A stretch of 64,000 nt of DNA from positions 11,406,123 to 11,470,122 of the forward strand of contig OZ025868.1 in assembly GCA_964019415.1 (NCBI GenBank), in the 5' to 3' direction. This document shows, in pieces, positions 41,732 through 59,232 of this stretch; within the stretch, counting starts at the first letter, position 1, and every line of letters starts with the position of its first letter. Source of the stretch: Ianthella basta. Taxonomy: Eukaryota; Porifera; Demospongiae; Verongiida; Ianthellidae. Both the position numbers and the translations under genes were made by a program. A model generated the notes under the pieces. That model saw only the letters and a list, made by a program, of their open reading frames with translations, was not told the origin of the DNA and ran no database searches.

Positions 41732-43254
41732 CTTCAACTGCAGCATCTATAGCTATCACTCAGTAGCCAGGTTTGGAAGTGCTTTGCATCAGAAGCACTG
41801 ACATTGGAAGCACCTGCGTTGGGCGCCAAAGGCGCCCTTCTCTGCTAGTATACATAATATATACAGTGCAAGCTACAATATACACCACTAATCTAAAGTA
41901 AATATTATGATATAATATAAATAATTCCCGGAGGGGGGGGGGGGGGGGGGGTTGGCAGCCCTCATGAACATGTTATAGGTATGGTTTTGAAGTGTGGGAG
42001 ATTTTAAGACTTTTAAATGAGACGGAGTTTTTAATTAAGTCTTCATTCTTTTACAAGCAGCCCCGCAAAATCCTAATATAAATGTGCATAGCATAACGCT
42101 TAATGTATAGTGCATTTATATTGATGCATAGTGGTATCTTGTATATTAATGCAACTGGGCTCGTTGAGATGTGAAACTTGGTGGACATATCCAAGTGGTC
42201 CACCTTTCTATGTTATTAGCAGGATTTCTTAATTAGTCTCAAAATGGCCAACATATGTGAGGTGTATGATGTATTCAACTAGCCAGGCCCGCTCAGTCAT
42301 GACACTCGGTGGGCCTAGCCAGATAATCCAACTCTTCATGTCATTAGCAGGATTTCTTAATTAGTCGCAAAATGGCCGAGAAAAATGAGGTTCATTGCAT
42401 ATCTTACTGACCCAGCCCTGCTAAGTCGTGACACTAAGTGGATGTAGTTAGATGACCAATTTGCTCATGTCATTAGCAGTATTGCTTAATTAGTCACCAA
42501 ATGGAGGCGATGTTTTGAACAATCACACTTTTGACACCAATTTGTAGGCATTTGCCGCTATGCTGGAGCAGAGCAGCACCAACATGTACACTTGCTCACA
42601 ACTATCCAGCCACAATATCCAGCTACTATACCACCACATAGATAAATACAACCGCCATCACCACCACCACAGTGGAAGTTGCAGTGAGCACACCAGTATA
42701 ATATTATGTGCTAGAGCTGCAAGAAAACAGACCACCACATCAGGCGCAGCTACCACATACTACTACCACCTCCACACAGTGCAAGTTACAATATTACGGC
42801 CACCACATGCATTCCTAGATGAAAATGACCACCACCACCACCACCACATGGTGTAAGTTACAATGCATGCATTCAGTATATGCGCCACTGCTCTAGAAAA
42901 AACACCACTACCACCACCACCACACAGTGCAAGTTACAATATCGCAGACACCACCACCTGTGCCAGTAGAGTATCTGCGCTAGCTGGTCATAGAAAAAGA
43001 CCACCACCAGTGCAAGTTACAGTAGCCACCACCACAATGTACCAGTAGAGTATCTGTGCTAGTTGGTCATAGAAAAAGACCACCTGTCCAGTTACAGTGG
43101 CACCGGGCCAGCACACGCACCATTCACACCACTACATGTGCCAGAAAGTAAATGCGCTCAATGGCTGAAGAAAAGAACACCAGCGCAAGTCACAGCCAGT
43201 CAAAACCTGCACCGCTGTCATTGGAGTGCACGCTGCAGCAAGCAAATATAACTT

Positions 43255-43322
43255 GCCTAAGGGCATGCCATTGAATTTCTTCCCATGCACCCTCAATTCA
43301 ATGGCATGCCGCCCTTAGGCAA
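43255..43322. repeat. Local hairpin in the centre of the giant palindrome
   Basis: GCCTAAGGGCATGCCATTGA and its reverse complement flank a short loop. The same hairpin recurs at about 43637-43703 and 43768-43834. Confidence 0.75.
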
Positions 43323-43571
43323 GCTTGCACATTGTGGTGGTGGCTACTGTAACTTGCACTGGTGGTGGTCTTTTTCTATGACCAGCTAGCGCAAATACTC
43401 TACTGGCACAGGTGGTGGTGTCTGCGATATTGTAACTTGTACTGTGTGGTGGTGGTGGTGGTATATATAATTATATATATATATAAGACCACCAGTGCAA
43501 GTTACAGTAGCCACCACCACATGTGCCAGTAGAGTATCTGCGCTAGTTGGTCATTGAAAAGCACATGCAAG

Positions 43572-43837
43572 TTACAGCCGGTCAGAACCTGCACCGCTGC
43601 CATTGGAATGCACGCTGCAGCAAGCAATTGTAACTTGCCTAAGGGCATGCCATTGAATTGAGAGTGCATGGGAAGAAATTCAATGGCATGCCCTTAGGCA
43701 AGTTACAGCCGGTCAGAACCTGCACCGCTGCCATTGGAATGCACGCTGCAGCAAGCAATTGTAACTTGCCTAAGGGCATGCCATTGAATTGAGAGTGCAT
43801 GGGAAGAAATTCAATGGCATGCCCTTAGGCAAGTTAC
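43572..43837. repeat. Tandem pair of about 131 bp, each with a hairpin
   Basis: Two near-identical head-to-tail units containing AAGTTACAGCCGGTCAGAAC, GCACGCTGCAGCAAGCAATTG and the GCCTAAGGGCATGCC hairpin. They fill the centre of the giant palindrome. Confidence 0.75.
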
Positions 43838-45206
43838 AATTGCCTGTTGCAGCGTGCATTCCAATGGCAGCAGTGCAGGTTCTGACCGGCTGTAACTTGC
43901 ATGTGCTGGCCTGGAGCCACTGTAACTTGCACTGGTGGTCTTTTTCAATGACCAACTAGCGCAGATACTCTACTGGCACATGTGGTGGTGGCTACTGTAA
44001 CTTGCACTGGTGGTCTTATTCTATGACCAACTAGCACAGATACTCTACTGGCATATGTGGTGGTGGCTACTGTAACTTGCACTGCTGGTCTTTTTCTATG
44101 ACCAACTGACGCAGATACTCTACTGGCACAGGTGGTGGTGGCTGCGATATTGTAACTTGCACTGTGTGGTGGTAGTGGTGGTGGTGCTTTTTTCTAGAGC
44201 AATGGCGCATATACTGAATGCATGCATTGAAACTTGCACAGTGTGGTGGTGGTGGTGGCGGTCGTTTCATCTAGTAATGCATGTGGTGGCTGTAATATTG
44301 TAACTTGCACTGTGTGGTGGTGGTAGTAGTATATGGTAGCAGCACCTGATGTGCATGGTGGTCTGTTTTCTTTCAGCTGTAGCACATAATATACTCATTG
44401 CAACTTCCACTGTGGTGGTGATGGTGGTTGTATTTATCTATGTGGTGGTATAGTAGCTGGATATTGTGGCTGGATAGTTGTGAGCAAGTGTACAGGTGGG
44501 TGCTGCTCTGCTCCAGCATAGCAGCAAATGCCTACAAATTGGTGTCAAAAGTGTGATTGTTCAAAACATCGCCTCCATTTTGTGACTAATTAAGCAATAC
44601 TGCTAATGACATGAGCAAATTGGTCATCTAAGTATGTCCACTTAGTATCACGACTTAGCAGGGATGGGTCAGTAAGATATGCAATGAACCTCATTTTTCT
44701 CGGCCATTTTGCGACTAATTAAAAAATTCTGCTAATGACATGAAGAGTTGGATTATCTGGCTAGGTCCACCAAGTGTCATGACTGGGCGGGCCTGGCTGG
44801 TTGAATACATCATGCCCCTCACATATGTCGGCCATTTTGAGACTAATTAAGAAATCCCGCTAATAACATAGAAAGGTGGACCACTTGGATATGTCCACCA
44901 AGTTTCACGTCTCAACGAGCCCAGTTGCATTAATATACAAGATACCACTATGCATCAATATAAATGCACTATACATTAAGTGTTATGCTAGGCACATTTA
45001 TATTAGGATTTTGCGGGCTGCTTGTAGAAGAATGAAGACTTAATTAAAAACTCCGTCTCATTTAAAAGTCTTAAAATCTCCCACACTTCAAAGCCATACC
45101 TATCACATGTTCATGAGGGCTGCCAACCCCCCCCCCCCCCGGGAATTATTTATATTATATCATATTATTTACTTTAGATTAGTGGTGTATATTGTAACTT
45201 GCACTG

Positions 45207-46136
45207 TATATATATCCCAACCAAATCGCCAGCTACCGCGTCAGTGTGGGGCGAGCTCAGGCTCGCCCCAATTTAAGAGCTCTTTGCAATAGAGGAAGCT
45301 TAAATGAAGTAAGTCGATAGCGAGTCACCTCAGAGCGACGCCATTTTAAAATGCTGGTCGCTCGGTCTCACAGGAGAGTCTTTCAATAGGCTTCTTACTA
45401 GTACTACCGTGTAAAACATATGTATGTCCTAATTTCTCTTGATAAATAGACGACGAAATGCGAACATAGATGATTGCGAGCCTTGTAAAGCGTAGACATC
45501 GAGCGCTGCCATCTTGAATTGCCCGAAATATACATACATACCTGGTACATAGTCCATTACGAACATAAAGCCATACGAATACCTAAAAGTAAAACAATAT
45601 GGGGGCACCCCGAACAGGTGTTCGGAATTCTTTAAACATTTCTACAAAGGTAAAATTATAGCAAACTTATGGACATGTACATGGATAACCAATTATAAAT
45701 GATCCTTTTACAGTAAACTAACAGACTATATGCAGCTACTCAGCCCACCTTGATCAAACCCTCAACAAGAAGCAAATCATCATCCTGCACTTTCCTTTGA
45801 AGCCCAGCTTCCTAAATCTTCTTTTGAGCCATGACATACTGTGATGTATACAGCAATGCACACAACCCAATAGGCTAAAACTCGGCTAGCTATATATACT
45901 TAGCCATGGTAGTAGCTATCACACTTTTAAATGTACAAACTCTCCACATGCACAATTATATATGTGCCAAGAACTGCAAGCTATAGCCAGTCAGCTAGTT
46001 TATATACCTTAAATTCTTCTGACATATCGCAGTCTAGACAGGATTGTTCTGTAACTTCTCCATGACATAACTAAATCTATCAAAAGGTCTGATGCATAAG
46101 AGAAACCAGTCAGTATCTAGCTTGCAACTATTACGA
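45207..46136. other. No gene recognised
   Basis: Near 45245-45275 there is a GGGGCGAGC.CAGGCTCGCCCC short palindrome. Related strings occur at 39605 and 53620. Confidence 0.4.
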
Positions 46137-46398
46137 CTAGAAATAATAAAAAAATTCTACAAAATAGTAAGGATGTAGGGATGATGTAAAAAGGACAGAA
46201 ACAAGTCAAGGCTGTTACACAGTAGAGCATTAACCATGGTCCCTACATGCAAGAATGTCGCACCTTATAGTCCTACATCCTTGAATGTAGGGATGATGGT
46301 TAATGCTCCACTGTGTAACAGCCTTTACTTGTTTCTGTCCTTTTTATGTCATCCCTACATCCTTACTACTTCTTGTAGAAAGTTTCTATTATTTCTAG
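46137..46398. mobile_element. Hairpin MITE of about 262 bp
   Basis: Arms start CTAGAAATAATA and contain AGTAAGGATGTAGGGATGA, AAAAAGGACAGAAACAAGT and GGCTGTTACACAGT. The right arm is the reverse complement ending at 46398. The arms are about 100-120 bp with a loop near 46250. Confidence 0.8.
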
Positions 46399-46711
46399 TT
46401 TCTGCACTTTTTATGGAGCAGGAGCTAAGATGCATGATATAGCTAGCTATTTAAACTTCTTGTGTAGCTCCTGTTAGAATTAGCTGCAATTTGCATGTGA
46501 GAAATTGTATTGGCAATGTAAATACTTCAGTACGTCCACAAGCCAAATGCCATGCTAACTAAGTCGTGGAGCAAGGCGAAGAATTCCACTGTGGAGCAAA
46601 ACAACCGAAAAGTAGCATCCGGAAGCTGTAGGCAGCTGCTCGCAGTGGCACCAGTCACGCCGGTTTCATCCGGTTGCATTACGTAATTTGAAAATGGCGT
46701 CCGCCCCGCTT

Positions 46712-49009: not shown

Positions 49010-52000
49010 CAGAGCAAACAGCGGAGTGCAGTTCGAAAACAATACTGACACAATGTTGGGACCCATCTTCGTCAGGCTTCTGAAGGAGCGGAAGAAGGAT
49101 GCCCGGTCGATCGAGGTGTGAAGAACCCAAGACCCCACAGAGGAGCCAGAGGAGAGGCACAGACCCGACAGACACTGGAGCAGGACACTACAGGAACACA
49201 CCGGCACGTCAGGTGGCCTCATGATCTGACTCGGGTCTGGCAAGAATCCGACAGGCGGAAGAGGGACGCGTAACCTCGTGAATCCCCAACGGCTGATGGG
49301 CGGAGGAGGGATTCATCCCCAACGGCCTTTCGCTGCTACTCTCTGAGATCTAGAAGCTCTCGGACCCGGACCCCCACACGGAAAACACAAGGAGGACCCG
49401 GTGTGAGGCCAGCCACCTCACCTACGAAGGGTAAGGCTAAGAAAACAGGATCCAGGCGCGATGCTTCGTGCGGAAGTGGACAGAAGGCTGAAGACAGAGG
49501 TGTGAGGGCAGCCCGAGCGACAAAACCAGTGTCAAGGACGAAGAAGAGTGTGCCATCGCCTGCACAGAGACAGAAGCAGAGTGCCATAACCACCAGGCTG
49601 CTCAGTACTCGAGAGATACAGCGATTTGGGACATGGAACGTGCGAACTCTTCGGGTCTTGGCAAGACAGAACAACTAGCAAAGGAAATGAAGCATTACCA
49701 ACTTTCCATCCTAGCTGTGACATGGACCCACCTACCAGGGGGAGGGGAGATGACTCTAGAAGAGGGAGGCGACTACACCATGATATTCTCAGGGAGACAA
49801 GATGAGAGCAACGTGGAAGGAGTTGGACTTGCTCTCACTGCTCACGCAAGAGCTAAAATGCGATACCACCAAGCTGTGTTTTCCAGAGTGCTGGCGGCAG
49901 AGTTCCTCACACAAGTGGGTCCTTTGCTGATTGTTGTGGCATATGCTCCTACTGACCAGGACTGCGCAGAAGAGAAAGATCGCTTCTACTCTGACCTTGA
50001 CTGTGTGATGAACAATGGGAACTGGTAATGGTAATGGGAGACTTCAATGCATCGGTGAGTGAAGGGGCGAAGGGAGTGGTTGGACCCTACGGGTCGGGGA
50101 ATTGTACCAGTGACAACGGTGAGAGGCTTGTGTCTTTAGCCAGTACACATGGATTGTGCATTGCTAATACCCTTTTCCCACACAAGCACATCCACACAGC
50201 ATCATGGTACCCCCCTGACCCAAGGTCCCGGCCAAGCCTTAAGGACTATGTGCTGGTCAAGCATCGGATGAGGTCATCAATCCTGGACACAAGAGTTCAC
50301 AGGGGAGCGGACATGGACAGTGACCACCGTCTGGTGATCACCTCCATACAGCTGAAGCTGGTGAAGAAGGCAAGAAACCAGAGAAGACGGCAGTGCTTCA
50401 ATGTAGGACTTCAGAATCAAAGGCAGAGTGAGTTTATGAAAACCATTGGAGAATGTTTTGGTGCTAGGAAAAGACAGGGAGATGTAGAGGAGCGATGGGA
50501 TGAACTGAAGAAATCAATACTGGGATCAGCAGAAGAACACCTACAAACGGAAACAAACGGAAGAGGCAAAGCAGGTGGATGACACAAGACACGAGTGAAA
50601 TCATGGAGGCGAAGTGAATGGCTTTTCTGAGATGGCAAGAACAACGAGAAGATGCCAGGAGGCACAAAGAGTACAGAGACCTTTGTAAGAGAGTGAGGAG
50701 AGCAGTGAAAGAGGACAATGATGATGATGAAGGGACTAGAGGATGACATGAAACACCACTGGCAGGGAAGCTTCTTCAAAAAATGAGACAACTAACTGCA
50801 ACCAGAGCGATACCTATGAACACCATCATGGATGAGAGTGGACAGCCTCTGCAGAAGAGTGAGGAGAAGTTGGCATGGTGGAAAAGACATTTTGAGAAGG
50901 TATTGAATGTACAGAGTGTGGTAGCAGGGAATGTGATTGAAGAGCTTGAGGACCGTTCAGAGGTAGAAACAACACAAGTGACCAGGGAAGAAGTTGAACA
51001 GGCAGTGAGGAAGCTCCAGAATTACAAGGCAGCAGGAGAGGATGAAATTGTGACAGAGTTATTGAAGAATGGAGGGGATGCAATGATTGACTGGTTGTTA
51101 GAGATACTGCAAGAAGTGTGGAAGACCAAGCAAGTGCCAAGTGAATGGAAGAAGGCTGTTCTGGTGCCTCTGCACAAGAAGAAAGACCGAAAGATATGCG
51201 ACAACTACCGCGGCATATCCCTGCTGAGTGTTCCGGGAAAGGTGCTCTCCCTTGTGCTGCTGGACAGACTGGAGACCATCATTGACCCCCAACTCATGGA
51301 GTCGCAGTGTGGCTTCAGGAAGGGACGGGGTACAGTTGATCAAATCTTGGTAGCACGTCAGATCATAGAGAGAGCAACTGAGTACCAGACCCCTGTACAT
51401 CTTGGCTTCGTGGATCTCACTAAGGCCTATGAATCGGTGGACCGCCCTGCCCTGTTTGCCATGCTGAGGCACTACAGGGTTCCCCAACAGCTGATTGACA
51501 TCATTAAGGAGCTATACACGGGCTGGGTGAGAACCACAGACAGGACATCAGAGGACTTTGAGGTGATGACTGGAGTAAGACAAGGCTGTGTGCTGTCCCC
51601 TCTCCTGTTCAACTGCTTCATGGACAGGATCTTGAGGGAGGCCATGGAGATGACTGGAGGGGGCCTGCAGGTTGAATACACCACCAGTGGGGGGTTGTTC
51701 TTATCATACAGGGACAAGACCCCACTGACCACCTGCATCCAGAACATACGGTATGCAGATGACCTGACCCTAATTGCAGAGACCAGAGGGGAACTGCAGC
51801 GTATGGTAGATGTATTGGACAGAGCCTGCGCTTGATGGGGGATGAAGATCAATGGAGACAAGACCAAGGTGCTCAACATTGGTGAACTGACGGGGGACCA
51901 TCCGGCCATCACACTGAACGGCCACGCACTTGAGGAAGTAGACTCCTTCTCCTACCTTGGAAGTGAAGTGGAACAGACTGCTAGGGTGGAGAGAGATATT

Positions 52001-52585
52001 GGAATCAGACTGGAGAAGGCAGCAACTGTTTACCGAATGTGGAAATGGAAGGTGTTCAAGAGTCGAAACCTCAGCAAGACAACCAAAGTGCGTGTGTTTC
52101 AATCAATGGTCATGTCATTCCTCCTCTACGGTGCAGAGACCTGGCCAGTAACCCAGCACGACATCAGAAGACTAAAGACATTCCACATGAGATGCCTCCG
52201 GGACATTGTAGGAGTGACTCTTTGGTACAAACGATGCAATGATGACATATTGGAGGAGACTGGGGAGCTCCCAGTAGAAGAACAGCTAAGGCTGAAGAGG
52301 CTCCAGTGGTTCGGACACCTACAAAGAATGCCAGACCATCGGCCACAGAAGCAGCTTCTAAGATGCAGACCAAGAGGAAAGAAGAGGAGGCCAGGAGGGA
52401 CATCTCTGCGTCGGGTAGATCTGATAAGCAGAGATCTAACAAGAATTGCTAACTGGCAAGAAATGGTGATGGACAGAAGTGAACGGAGAGCTGCAATACA
52501 CCAACCCAAGTCAACAGCCTCATTCCAACCTGTGACGAGGTAGAGCAACTGGATCCTGCCCGCCGTCCATGATGGACAAGGAGTA
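49010..52585 (+). mobile_element. Broken APE-type LINE (RTE-like)
   Basis: A non-LTR retrotransposon lying antisense in an intron of the serial-exon gene. Endonuclease: FGTWNVRTLR (near 49628), VMGDFNA (50031), DMDSDHRLV (50318). Reverse transcriptase: KICDNYRGISLLS (51193), CGFRKGRGTVDQI (51308), FVDLTKAYESVDR (51408), IRYADDLTLIAE (51745), and a C-terminal YLGSEVEQTARVERDIG / LQWFGHLQRMP region ending near 52543. The frame changes near 49660, near 50030 and between 50580 and 50780, and there is an in-frame TGA at 51833-51835, so it is dead. The 3' end has a short (GAA)n tail near 52575. The 5' limit is uncertain and the clade is inferred by eye. Confidence 0.85.
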
Positions 52586-57179: not shown

Positions 57180-59232
57180 TGGTACTTGTACCACGGTTCG
57201 TATGGAGAATCATATGGCCTTGTGCAGAAGTTGGACGAACAGCCTCAGCAGATTAGGCGTCTGACAGAAAAGCAGTCTACCCAGTTGGAAGAGATTGAGA
57301 GAAGGCAGTATCAGATGGAGAAGCATGTGAATTCCCTGATGGAGGAACAGAAGTCCATGCAGCAGGAGATGATGCTTAAACATAAGCAGGACTTCGAAGC
57401 TGACATGCTAGGTCAGTCCTTCGGTAGTTATTCAGGGCCAGTTGATGTCCTTCCTGAGGAAGACCTGCAGGTCAGGGTACGACAGAGTCGCCCTGCCACC
57501 TTGCGCCAAGCCCTAAAAGTGTCTCTGGGGTTGGAATCACTTTGCCTTGCCAGCAAGCAGAGGTTGCACGCAGCAATGTAGGCAGCATTGGAGGAGGAGG
57601 ACCCTGAAGACGAGCAACCTGACCAGAAGATCAATCACCATCTGACAGAACTGGTGAGGCATACTATGAGGGAACCAAGGCAGATGAGGATGCAGAAAGT
57701 CCAATGCACCAAAGGTCTGTGACTTGCTGGCACTTTGGTAAGAAAGGACATGTGCAGAGAGATTGCCCCACTAGAGTTCAACCTCCCACTGAGAGTGTTG
57801 CCCATCCTGGAAACGCGCAGTAGCCGAGATCATGGGGCAGAGCTCGGTTACAAATACTGAGGCCCCCAAAGTAGTGTTCAAAACTGGTTCACCATGCATG
57901 TGATAGTTTGATTCTTGCAGGGTCCATCAATGGCCGCACCTGTGACATCACCATTGACACAGGCAGTAATATCTCAATAGTCAGTGCAGATCTTTTGACT
58001 GAAGAGGACAAGATTTGTGTCCAGCCGGTAAGCTGCCTGCGGACAGTGACTGGTGAAAGGGCACCAATCCATGGAAAAGGTGAACTTCAGCTGAATATTG
58101 GGTCCTTGAACCTACGAAATCCAATGTGGGTGGCTGACATCCAGGACAAGTGTATCCTAGGTCTGGACTTCTTGGAGTGTCATGATTGCCTAGCCAACCT
58201 GAAGGACAGCTCCCTGAGAGTCGGGCAGATAGAGTTCCCACTGCGAAAATCTAGTCTAGAAACTTACCTTCATGCTATCAAGTCACACTTGCTGGACGTG
58301 TGTCTATTCCTCCCCTTTCAGAAGCAGTTGTGTTGGTCAGGATCGAAGGTGTTCGTGATAGCGTTCAATGGGGAATGCTGGAGCCCTCTGAAGCTGATGA
58401 GAAAGGCTTCAATGTGGATGGAGTGCTAATTGGCAGGACCTTGATGGACATGCAGAAGGAGACTATTCCCTTCTAGGGTGATGAATCTCTCCCGGGAGCC
58501 ACAGACGATTCGCAGGAGAGCCATACTAGCCTGCTGTGAGCCAGTCATTTCTGTCGTCACACCCGGAAGCCTGACACCACCCAGCAGGATCACAGGTGTT
58601 AGCAGAGGGGCTGCTCTGGATGAACTTCCTAGTCACCTCAAACCATTGTTCCAGCGTTGTGCAGATGGTCTTGAGACCACAGAGAAGGTGGCATTTCACC
58701 AGGTGCTAGTTTTCTGATCTTTTCTCTACAGGTGCTGATGACCTAGGGTGCACCGATCTGGTCAGACATGAGATCTGCATTGGAGATGGCAAACCAGTTC
58801 GCCAGCCACCAGGAAGAATGCCTTTGGTCAAGAGAGAAGAGGCCGAGAAGATGTTGTTAGAAATGAAGAGCAAGGAGTAATCGAGCCATCTGCGAGTGCC
58901 TAGTCTTCACTAGTTGTTCTAGTCAAGAAGGATGGAAGCACTCGCCCGAGATGCGACCTAGCGCTAAGGTTTCAATGATTAGCGCTTCCGGAGAAAGCCA
59001 GAGCTAAAGAGGGGAAGGTGTACTGAGACCCCTTGACAGGACCTGACGGATGCAGAACTATCTACATCCTAATGACATAATATGATTGACATATGATGAT
59101 GCATGCTCTAGAACATACTCCCTAGAATCCTATATAAGTGATCCATGCACAGCATTCAGCAGTCTTGCTTTGATCAATCATATCGAGTTAAGCAACTGTG
59201 TCCACTTTCCGTGACCTCGGCGAACGCTACAA
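57180..59232 (+). mobile_element. Ty3/Gypsy-type LTR retrotransposon fossil
   Basis: Parts in order: a gag-like region with a coiled coil (about 57186-57580) and a zinc-knuckle-like cluster near 57720-57765; an aspartic protease region with the DTGS signature near 57955; the first edge of a reverse transcriptase near 58760-58950; then a purine-rich tract and a probable 3' LTR at about 59019-59232 with a TATATAAG box near 59132. Most of the polymerase and integrase is missing and no matching 5' LTR is seen. It is broken in many places (at least half a dozen) and is clearly old and inactive. Confidence 0.75.

Follow-up and report, generated by a model that had tools for sequence, protein, structure and literature searches.

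A sponge repeat family with one constant end in (TA)n and an inverted second arm that may be copied from the first

How does a genome come to carry a palindrome of 3.3 kb whose long arms are themselves built of subrepeats? The question is raised by positions 41864-45206 of a 64,000-nucleotide stretch of the demosponge Ianthella basta (C1:11406123-11470122 in a genome of 209 Mb and 96 contigs; this whole stretch is called the window below). A preliminary description had seen there a single Foldback-type element with two matching termini. We found that the palindrome consists of two members of a dispersed repeat family, here called E, and that E is probably, though we hold this with modest confidence, a non-autonomous, (TA)n-targeting element of Penelope-style architecture that is completed by hairpin self-priming.

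Inverted self-alignment bore out much of the preliminary description. The palindrome is real and both of its termini, at 41864 and 45206, had been placed correctly; a poly-G indeed lies opposite a poly-C; the motif said to be common to ends and subrepeats is present, the terminal CAGTGCAAGYTACAATATACACCAC reappearing in shortened form as GTGCAAGTTACA in the minisatellite of the arms; and the reported lack of a transposase agrees with the finding of zero stop-to-stop frames of 150 amino acids (aa) inside the palindrome. The motif GTGCAAGTTACA was found four times on the forward strand and seven times as its reverse complement, all within 42779-45204 and nowhere else in the window. The arms are long and inverted as described but slightly longer than the 1.25-1.3 kb given, covering 41857-43323 and 43765-45213 with 89.4% identity over 1488 alignment columns and ungapped blocks of 606, 126 and 87 bp (96, 98 and 97% identity, respectively). 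TA-rich sequence flanks both outer ends, and the centre, rather than a plain spacer, holds extra inverted segments, a TA-rich stretch and a perfect 131-bp tandem duplication. What had to be given up is the single element: the parse gives two E elements in opposite orientation, each with one constant end, joined at the TA-rich stretch 43463-43486. An assembly artefact is unlikely because the two arms differ by about 4% in their outer parts and more inside, and because the family recurs on many contigs.

The preliminary description had proposed looking for other copies, and these number in the hundreds genome-wide, on many contigs and on both strands. We found at least 206 arm matches (39 of 1127 first-look candidates scored). 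A 44-base pattern of the constant end matched 342 + 323 = 665 sites and a 49-base pattern of the hairpin 252 + 276 = 528 sites, both with at most three mismatches and both with 0/0 matches for the reversed-pattern control. A looser 21-base end pattern gave 1523 + 1497 matches (control 0/1), a higher count because this pattern also fits internal motifs. As 665 constant ends stand against none in the control, a chance origin of the E repeats is excluded. We found no description of E in the literature searched, which is not proof that none exists.

Every E copy has one constant end, TA directly followed by CAGTGCAAGTTACAATATACACC, and an arm of about 1.45 kb up to a hairpin. Read from the constant end, the TA-rich flank is followed by CAGTGCAAGTTACAATATACACCACTAATCTAAAG, an AT microsatellite that is often (TAATA)n, a C/G block and the subrepeats, with a period of about 128 bp and then of about 75 bp, the latter carrying (CCA)n and the GTGCAAGTTACA motif; distally, a small hairpin of the form CATTGAATT-loop-AATTCAATG leads into a reversed arm of variable length. 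We parsed 27 loci into arm segments, namely the window and 26 fetched loci (L009-L034), of which 20 were taken from the best arm matches, a choice that favours arrays, and six around constant-end sites. One end was constant and the other stopped at many different positions of the second arm; the window palindrome and composites such as L028 and L029 were alone in having CAGTG at both sides. Among 53 hairpin-bearing elements, the aligned length of the second arm ranged from 33 to 988 nt. The 12 nt beyond it consisted of A or T at 11 or more positions in 31 elements, against a background of 3.0% of the 12-mers in the loci, and in seven further elements the second arm passed directly into the TA and CAGTG of a neighbouring E.

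We then compared the two arms within elements. From 59 hairpins with 350-nt flanks, 32 had at least 340 aligned bp between the arms, the second arms of the other 27 being shorter, and 30 of these were used for an allele test; L022_3582 and L028_3958 were left out for an own-arm identity of 90% or less, a filter that leans towards concordance. Over 122 polymorphic columns, the first and second arms of an element agreed at 0.993, compared with 0.787 when second arms were shuffled among elements (maximum of 300 shuffles, 0.858). Since own-arm agreement is inflated by the identity filter as well as by shared ancestry, alleles private to one element provide a sharper test. Such alleles were found in both arms in 25 cases, in the first arm only in 12 and in the second arm only in 27; independent mutation of two inherited arms would put almost no private alleles in both.

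The hairpin stem has a pattern of its own. One stem base is GTAACTTGCC in the first arm and GTAAGCTTGCC in the second, and differs in all 30 elements; a nearby T/A difference is present in 16 of the 30, with the same sense in 15 of them, and five elements differ at a third stem column. Some elements (L022_3582, L028_3280 and L028_3958) are 2.6-5.2% from every other first arm, while the inner ~120 nt of their own arms are free of mismatches (0/120 in L022_3582 and 0/119 in L028_3280). The simplest reading is that the template already includes the hairpin and at least ~33 nt beyond its loop, both inherited, and that the rest of the second arm is made anew from the first. The heritable unit of E would then be one arm, comprising the constant end, AT-rich microsatellite, GC block, subrepeats and terminal hairpin.

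A mechanism of insertion consistent with these observations can be proposed. An endonuclease would open a (TA)n tract, to which the constant end would become attached; target-primed reverse transcription (TPRT) of an E transcript would be the simplest route. The new strand, ending in the hairpin, would fold and prime synthesis back along the same strand, a step that the allele pattern supports; the second arm would end at no fixed position, frequently within the (CCA/GGT)n tract, and presumably be joined to TA-rich DNA. Two routes would suit this scheme, snap-back of a first strand made on a sense RNA and self-priming of RNA on an antisense transcript. By eye, the second arm of one unusual copy (L045 141-1657) begins at GAGGTTCTGACC and not at the usual hairpin, a fold that a snap-back model would allow. 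Parvoviruses provide an analogy only: in their rolling-hairpin replication, a terminal hairpin primes the copying of the adjacent strand, and we know of no parvovirus-style replication protein for E, which is a dispersed genomic repeat. The enzyme would have to be supplied from elsewhere, most likely by a Penelope-type or other TPRT element because the architecture of E matches that of the Penelope-like elements (PLEs) of this genome. Purified lizard Penelope protein is reported to cleave and extend a DNA target in vitro and has been modelled nicking AT-rich genomic DNA (PMC11167929).

Neighbouring PLEs of this genome are themselves mostly arranged head to head. We identified 55 GIY-YIG matches, and the 15 neighbour pairs within 5 kb comprise 13 in -/+ order, one ++ and one --, with none in +/- order; two of the 13, both on C10 and with equal spacing, may be one duplicated locus, and the head-to-head pair on C23 has one match in common with the -- pair. 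All five of the -/+ pairs that we fetched (L040-L044) are inverted repeats, with arms of 781-1554 bp at 99.87-100% identity, spacers of 299-685 bp and a different fold point in each. A hammerhead-like motif is present in both arms of all five, flanking duplications of ~8-15 bp could be seen by eye, and L040, a PLE locus that was scanned, carries RVT_1 and GIY-YIG. The arms of each locus are more alike than either is to the other four loci, although the contrast is small for L040 and L044, mutually 99.93% identical. These near-perfect palindromes form a natural set for studying self-priming. E has in common with PLEs the head-to-head inverted partner with a junction palindrome, but the fold point of E is fixed and inherited in most copies seen (L045 being the exception), whereas it differs among the five PLE loci. 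The open reading frame (ORF) for reverse transcriptase (RT) and GIY-YIG of an endonuclease-containing (EN+) PLE has no counterpart in the window feature, where no ORF of 150 aa or more was found; E could therefore only be a non-autonomous PLE derivative.

The preliminary description had also pointed to a TATATA-type target and to empty sites, and both were found. E occupies one site of another repeat, GGTTGGCGTAT-(TA)n-TCCGTAACATGAAGCC, in one orientation in L022 and L032 and in the opposite one in L027. The pattern of the unfilled site, GGTTGGCGTATN{0,30}CCRTAACATGAAGCC, matched 57 + 57 = 114 places genome-wide (control 0/0), and a short TA-rich spacer was present in all 100 of the 114 that were listed. 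Arrays (e.g., L014, L015, L017, L018 and L026) show doubled constant ends, the variable end of one E being followed by the remainder of another E from its microsatellite onward. From this anatomy, a new E appears to have inserted into the (TAATA)n of an older one, and repetition of the process would give head-to-tail nested arrays. The array in L019 is head-to-tail with a period near 1.73 kb and includes two units with identical inner arms. Some 60-105 kb past the window, C1:11530000-11575000 is dense in E ends and hairpins, all listed ones on the same strand; it is apparently a large nested array, from which L025 and L046 were read. Two copies of long interspersed nuclear elements (LINEs) with 3' tails of their own lie in or against the AT-rich tract of E (L037 near 1350; L046 near 390 and 2480), and this tract is therefore a general target, used by other TPRT elements.

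Several observations weigh against completion of E by self-priming with a Penelope-type enzyme. The variable ends of 15 of the 53 elements adjoin neither A/T-rich DNA nor another E, although some of these are alignments broken at an indel, as in L014_6166, whose parse ends at GTGGTGGTA with tatata directly beyond. Private alleles in one arm (39) exceed those in both (25); 15 of the 27 second-arm-only alleles come from L021_4761 and are partly a junction effect because its aligned second arm ends early, at 325 nt. Own-arm divergence and first-arm distance are uncorrelated (Spearman -0.09, p 0.55; 45 of the 59 hairpins). Gene conversion between arms could likewise place private alleles in both, but the persistent stem difference, which it should also erase, argues against it. 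Target duplications of E cannot be delimited within (TA)n flanks, and the RNA intermediate is one that we infer. A hammerhead motif in the pseudo-long terminal repeat (pLTR) is common among PLEs, yet a hammerhead-like motif was present in none of five E loci and not in the window elements.

Nor did a partner emerge. Enzyme matches were compared by eye with the listed E places, namely 100 of the 3020 looser ends, 100 of the 665 constant ends, 100 of the 528 hairpins and about 150 of the 206 arms. The listed ends, arms and hairpins have no GIY-YIG match within 10 kb, and no enzyme-coding partner with the E constant end was found among the RVT_1, GIY-YIG, MULE and DDE_3 matches compared. Two of the 150 RVT_1 matches scored (of 3653 candidates) are near listed E ends, and both were rejected: C1:10435926 is a LINE adjoining an E constant-end region, with an (ATTGA)n-like tail in two other copies, and C1:11549678, also a LINE, lies with an (ATTG)n tail of its own between (TATTA)n stretches of E. 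Rfam showed no ribozyme family: the window gave 0 matches at gathering thresholds, and searches by E-value gave matches that were all below the gathering score and mostly miRNA-type hairpins (17 in one search and 9 in the other). Rfam also missed the hammerhead-like motif of the PLEs. ARAGORN, applied with a tRNA-type promoter in mind, reported 0 genes across five loci (L016, L021, L030, L035 and L036).

The Foldback, Mutator/SaTar and Tc1 readings are nevertheless less likely than hairpin self-priming. E could be a DNA transposon with terminal inverted repeats (TIRs) that targets (TA)n, of the Foldback, Galileo, Mutator/Phantom or MuTAnT/SaTar type, with the subrepeat motif as a transposase-binding site, second arms cut by deletion and arms homogenised by gene conversion; we consider this unlikely. 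The long subrepeated arms, the motif common to ends and subrepeats and the CAGTG on both sides of the window palindrome and of composites such as L028 and L029 would suit such an element, as does the (TA)n target, which E shares with Mutator elements of the MuTAnT/SaTar type (114 empty sites, and filled sites in the same repeat); (TA)n-targeting Mutator elements and their arrays have been published (PMC4486113; PMC5907723). Near-identical arms are in themselves no proof of snap-back, since within single Galileo copies the TIRs are also 98-100% identical (PMC3573991); our preference for snap-back comes from the distribution of private alleles, the stem difference that persists and the variable end that is left free. 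The parsed copies do not show the two matching long subrepeated termini of Foldback and Galileo, nor, save in the window and the composites, the TIRs at both ends of Mutator. Moreover, the variable second end lies mostly directly in A/T-rich DNA, which is unexpected after later deletion; conversion or cruciform repair should have removed the stem difference, which is kept in 30/30; and all 13 MULE matches are more than 25 kb from the listed E ends, arms and hairpins. A non-autonomous Tc1/mariner-like element, suggested by the TA target and the CAGTG start, is very improbable. A CAGTG start is typical of that superfamily, and three of the 146 DDE_3 matches in the genome lie on C1 within ~3 kb of a listed E end, as judged by eye; but only the one in L045 overlaps the expected E span, and there the DDE_3 frame, with a CAGTG-type start beside it, is beyond E and its (TA)n, behind a separate start, CAGTGAATGTTTTG, which we take to be the DDE_3 terminus, the other end not being found in the 3.8 kb of L045. 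Judged by position only, the other two matches lie outward of the constant end. The two TIRs with a TA duplication of a Tc1 element are not seen, the second terminus of E not being fixed.

A single-stranded DNA intermediate of the rolling-circle (HUH) or Helitron-like kind, with a self-priming 3' hairpin and without RNA, would explain the target-fixed end, the variable other end and the hairpin self-priming equally well, and Helitron-like 3' ends (a hairpin and CTAG directly followed by T) adjoin several E copies, including those of the window. Helitrons, however, start with TC and end with a hairpin and CTRR, and the boundaries of E show neither; in L011, the Helitron-like end is inside the E microsatellite and looks like a later insertion. 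We regard this route as improbable. Least credible of all is a satellite DNA amplified by unequal exchange, with inverted parts that are incidental: the periodic L019 array with its two matching units would be expected of it, but E is present in hundreds of copies on both strands of many contigs, with unrelated flanks and with 114 empty counterparts of one target, and on these grounds we rejected a satellite-only origin.

Hairpin self-priming as the preferred reading for E still leaves the history of the window palindrome to be told. The outer arms of its two elements, E1 and E2 (Table 1), are sisters (support 0.990; 96.3% identity vs. 95.4% for the next best), whereas the closest matches of their inner arms are other E copies and not each other. 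Conversion or template switching between E1 and E2, during or since insertion, is therefore likely. A single full-length snap-back was also weighed as the source of the palindrome; the outer arms are sisters, but the inner arms have their best matches elsewhere, and we neither adopted nor rejected it.

Table 1. Features of the window palindrome and its flanks (positions of the window)
Feature	Position	Strand	Basis
TA-rich left flank	41854..41863	.	sequence
E1, left element: constant end, first arm, hairpin, short second arm	41864..43462	+	parse +1>1462 then -1177>1044 vs arm reference
Constant end of E1, CAGTGCAAGCTACAATATACAC; AAGTTACA in most copies listed	41864..41885	+	sequence, copy comparison
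AT-rich tract inside the arm; many other copies have (TAATA)n here, into which later E copies appear to insert	41900..41926	+	
G run facing C run 45127-45140	41933..41951	+	sequence
Three ~128-bp subrepeats of the first arm; mirrored at 44555-44935	42133..42504	+	repeat families D5, D7, D3
Minisatellite-like region, units of ~72-85 bp with GTGCAAGTTACA motif and (CCA)n; limits approximate	42762..43190	+	
Hairpin core of E1, CATTGAATT-17 nt-AATTCAATG	43269..43303	+	hairpin extraction, genome-wide pattern
TA-rich stretch between variable ends of E1 and E2	43463..43486	.	sequence; A/T-rich DNA adjoins most variable ends elsewhere
E2, right element, opposite orientation, constant end at 45206	43488..45206	-	parse +1140>1414 then -1460>1
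Two identical 131-bp tandem copies, centre of E2, one hairpin each	43567..43828	.	
Hairpin core of E2, copy 1, within the 131-bp duplication	43651..43685	-	
Hairpin core of E2, copy 2	43782..43816	-	
Constant end of E2	45185..45206	-	sequence, copy comparison
(TA)n right flank	45207..45215	.	sequence

Other features of the window were recorded in passing. A short GC hairpin followed by CTAG and TATA, resembling a Helitron 3' end, lies at 41821-41848 and was also seen in L010 (2962), L011 (4753, minus strand), L021 (7561) and L024 (1114 and 2200); these ends are mostly directly beside or within E copies, the one in L011 being inside the (TAATA)n tract of E. A second long hairpin at 46136-46399 has 102-nt arms that are 89% complementary, a 6-nt spacer and additional 27-nt outer arms; similar sequence in L009 near 5728 indicates a palindromic family resembling miniature inverted-repeat transposable elements (MITEs). 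Several ankyrin-repeat frames with 297-bp tandem units occupy 2445-31800, including a 1356-aa frame with a Death-domain match under the Pfam cut-off. LINE-like frames were found at 49492-52543, and an RT domain (RVT_1, E 1.9e-32) is present in one of them; 57875-58429 holds an aspartyl protease of the kind seen in retroelement gag-pol (gag-asp_proteas, E 4.8e-07).

E is of value because sequence can now be used to test a step that has been proposed for the life cycle of Penelope-type elements: with hundreds of natural products and a fixed fold point, the inherited hairpin and the newly copied arm can be separated at the level of single bases. Self-priming has been put forward as the origin of the head-to-head Penelope palindromes, and more experiments have been called for (PMC3846280). 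A bolder and, in our view, rather doubtful extension is that E is a minimal retroelement with a heritable terminal hairpin, in which snap-back at each insertion re-makes an inverted copy upstream of the transcription start and the divergence of the arms acts as a clock for the time since insertion; first-strand cDNA of PLEs snapping back likewise would account for their palindromes without an antisense template. If true, the inverted copy would do for E what long terminal repeat regeneration does for retroviruses.

Among known systems, the Pen elements of Adineta vaga come close: their description reports head-to-head repeats, interprets the junction palindromes as a mark of self-priming and proposes an antisense template, and it records a nearly perfect 38-bp palindrome at the 5' end of the pLTR in Pen3a and pLTR sequences that are sufficient for integration in trans (PMC3846280); inverted Penelope pairs have been noted in introns of D. 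virilis (PMC1431729). Like these EN+ PLEs, as far as they are described there, E has one fixed end, an inverted head-to-head partner that can be shorter and a junction palindrome; unlike them, it is without RT/GIY-YIG and without a hammerhead-like motif, and it sits in (TA)n. Long inverted arms with internal repeats are also known from Galileo (PMC3573991) and Tetris (PMC4079207), and Tetris further resembles E in array formation and in a stretch common to the flanking domain and the subrepeats. Both, however, are described as having two defined termini and target duplications of 7 bp (Galileo) or 8-10 bp (Tetris), whereas E has one terminus and duplications that are unreadable. Tetris shows that foldback elements are able to build satellites (PMC4079207), and E points to a way in which nested arrays resembling satellites can grow, namely when an element inserts into its own microsatellite. 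Finally, E is like SaTar and the rice Micron (PMC5907723) and MuTAnT (PMC4486113) in being non-autonomous, residing in (TA)n microsatellites and forming arrays, SaTars being 0.4-1.9 kb long. Those elements are mostly TIR elements assigned to Mutator, and SaTar arrays run end to end with members never interrupting one another, whereas E has one variable end and appears nested in its own microsatellite. E would be a counterpart of the plant (TA)n-targeting elements, apparently via a different mechanism.

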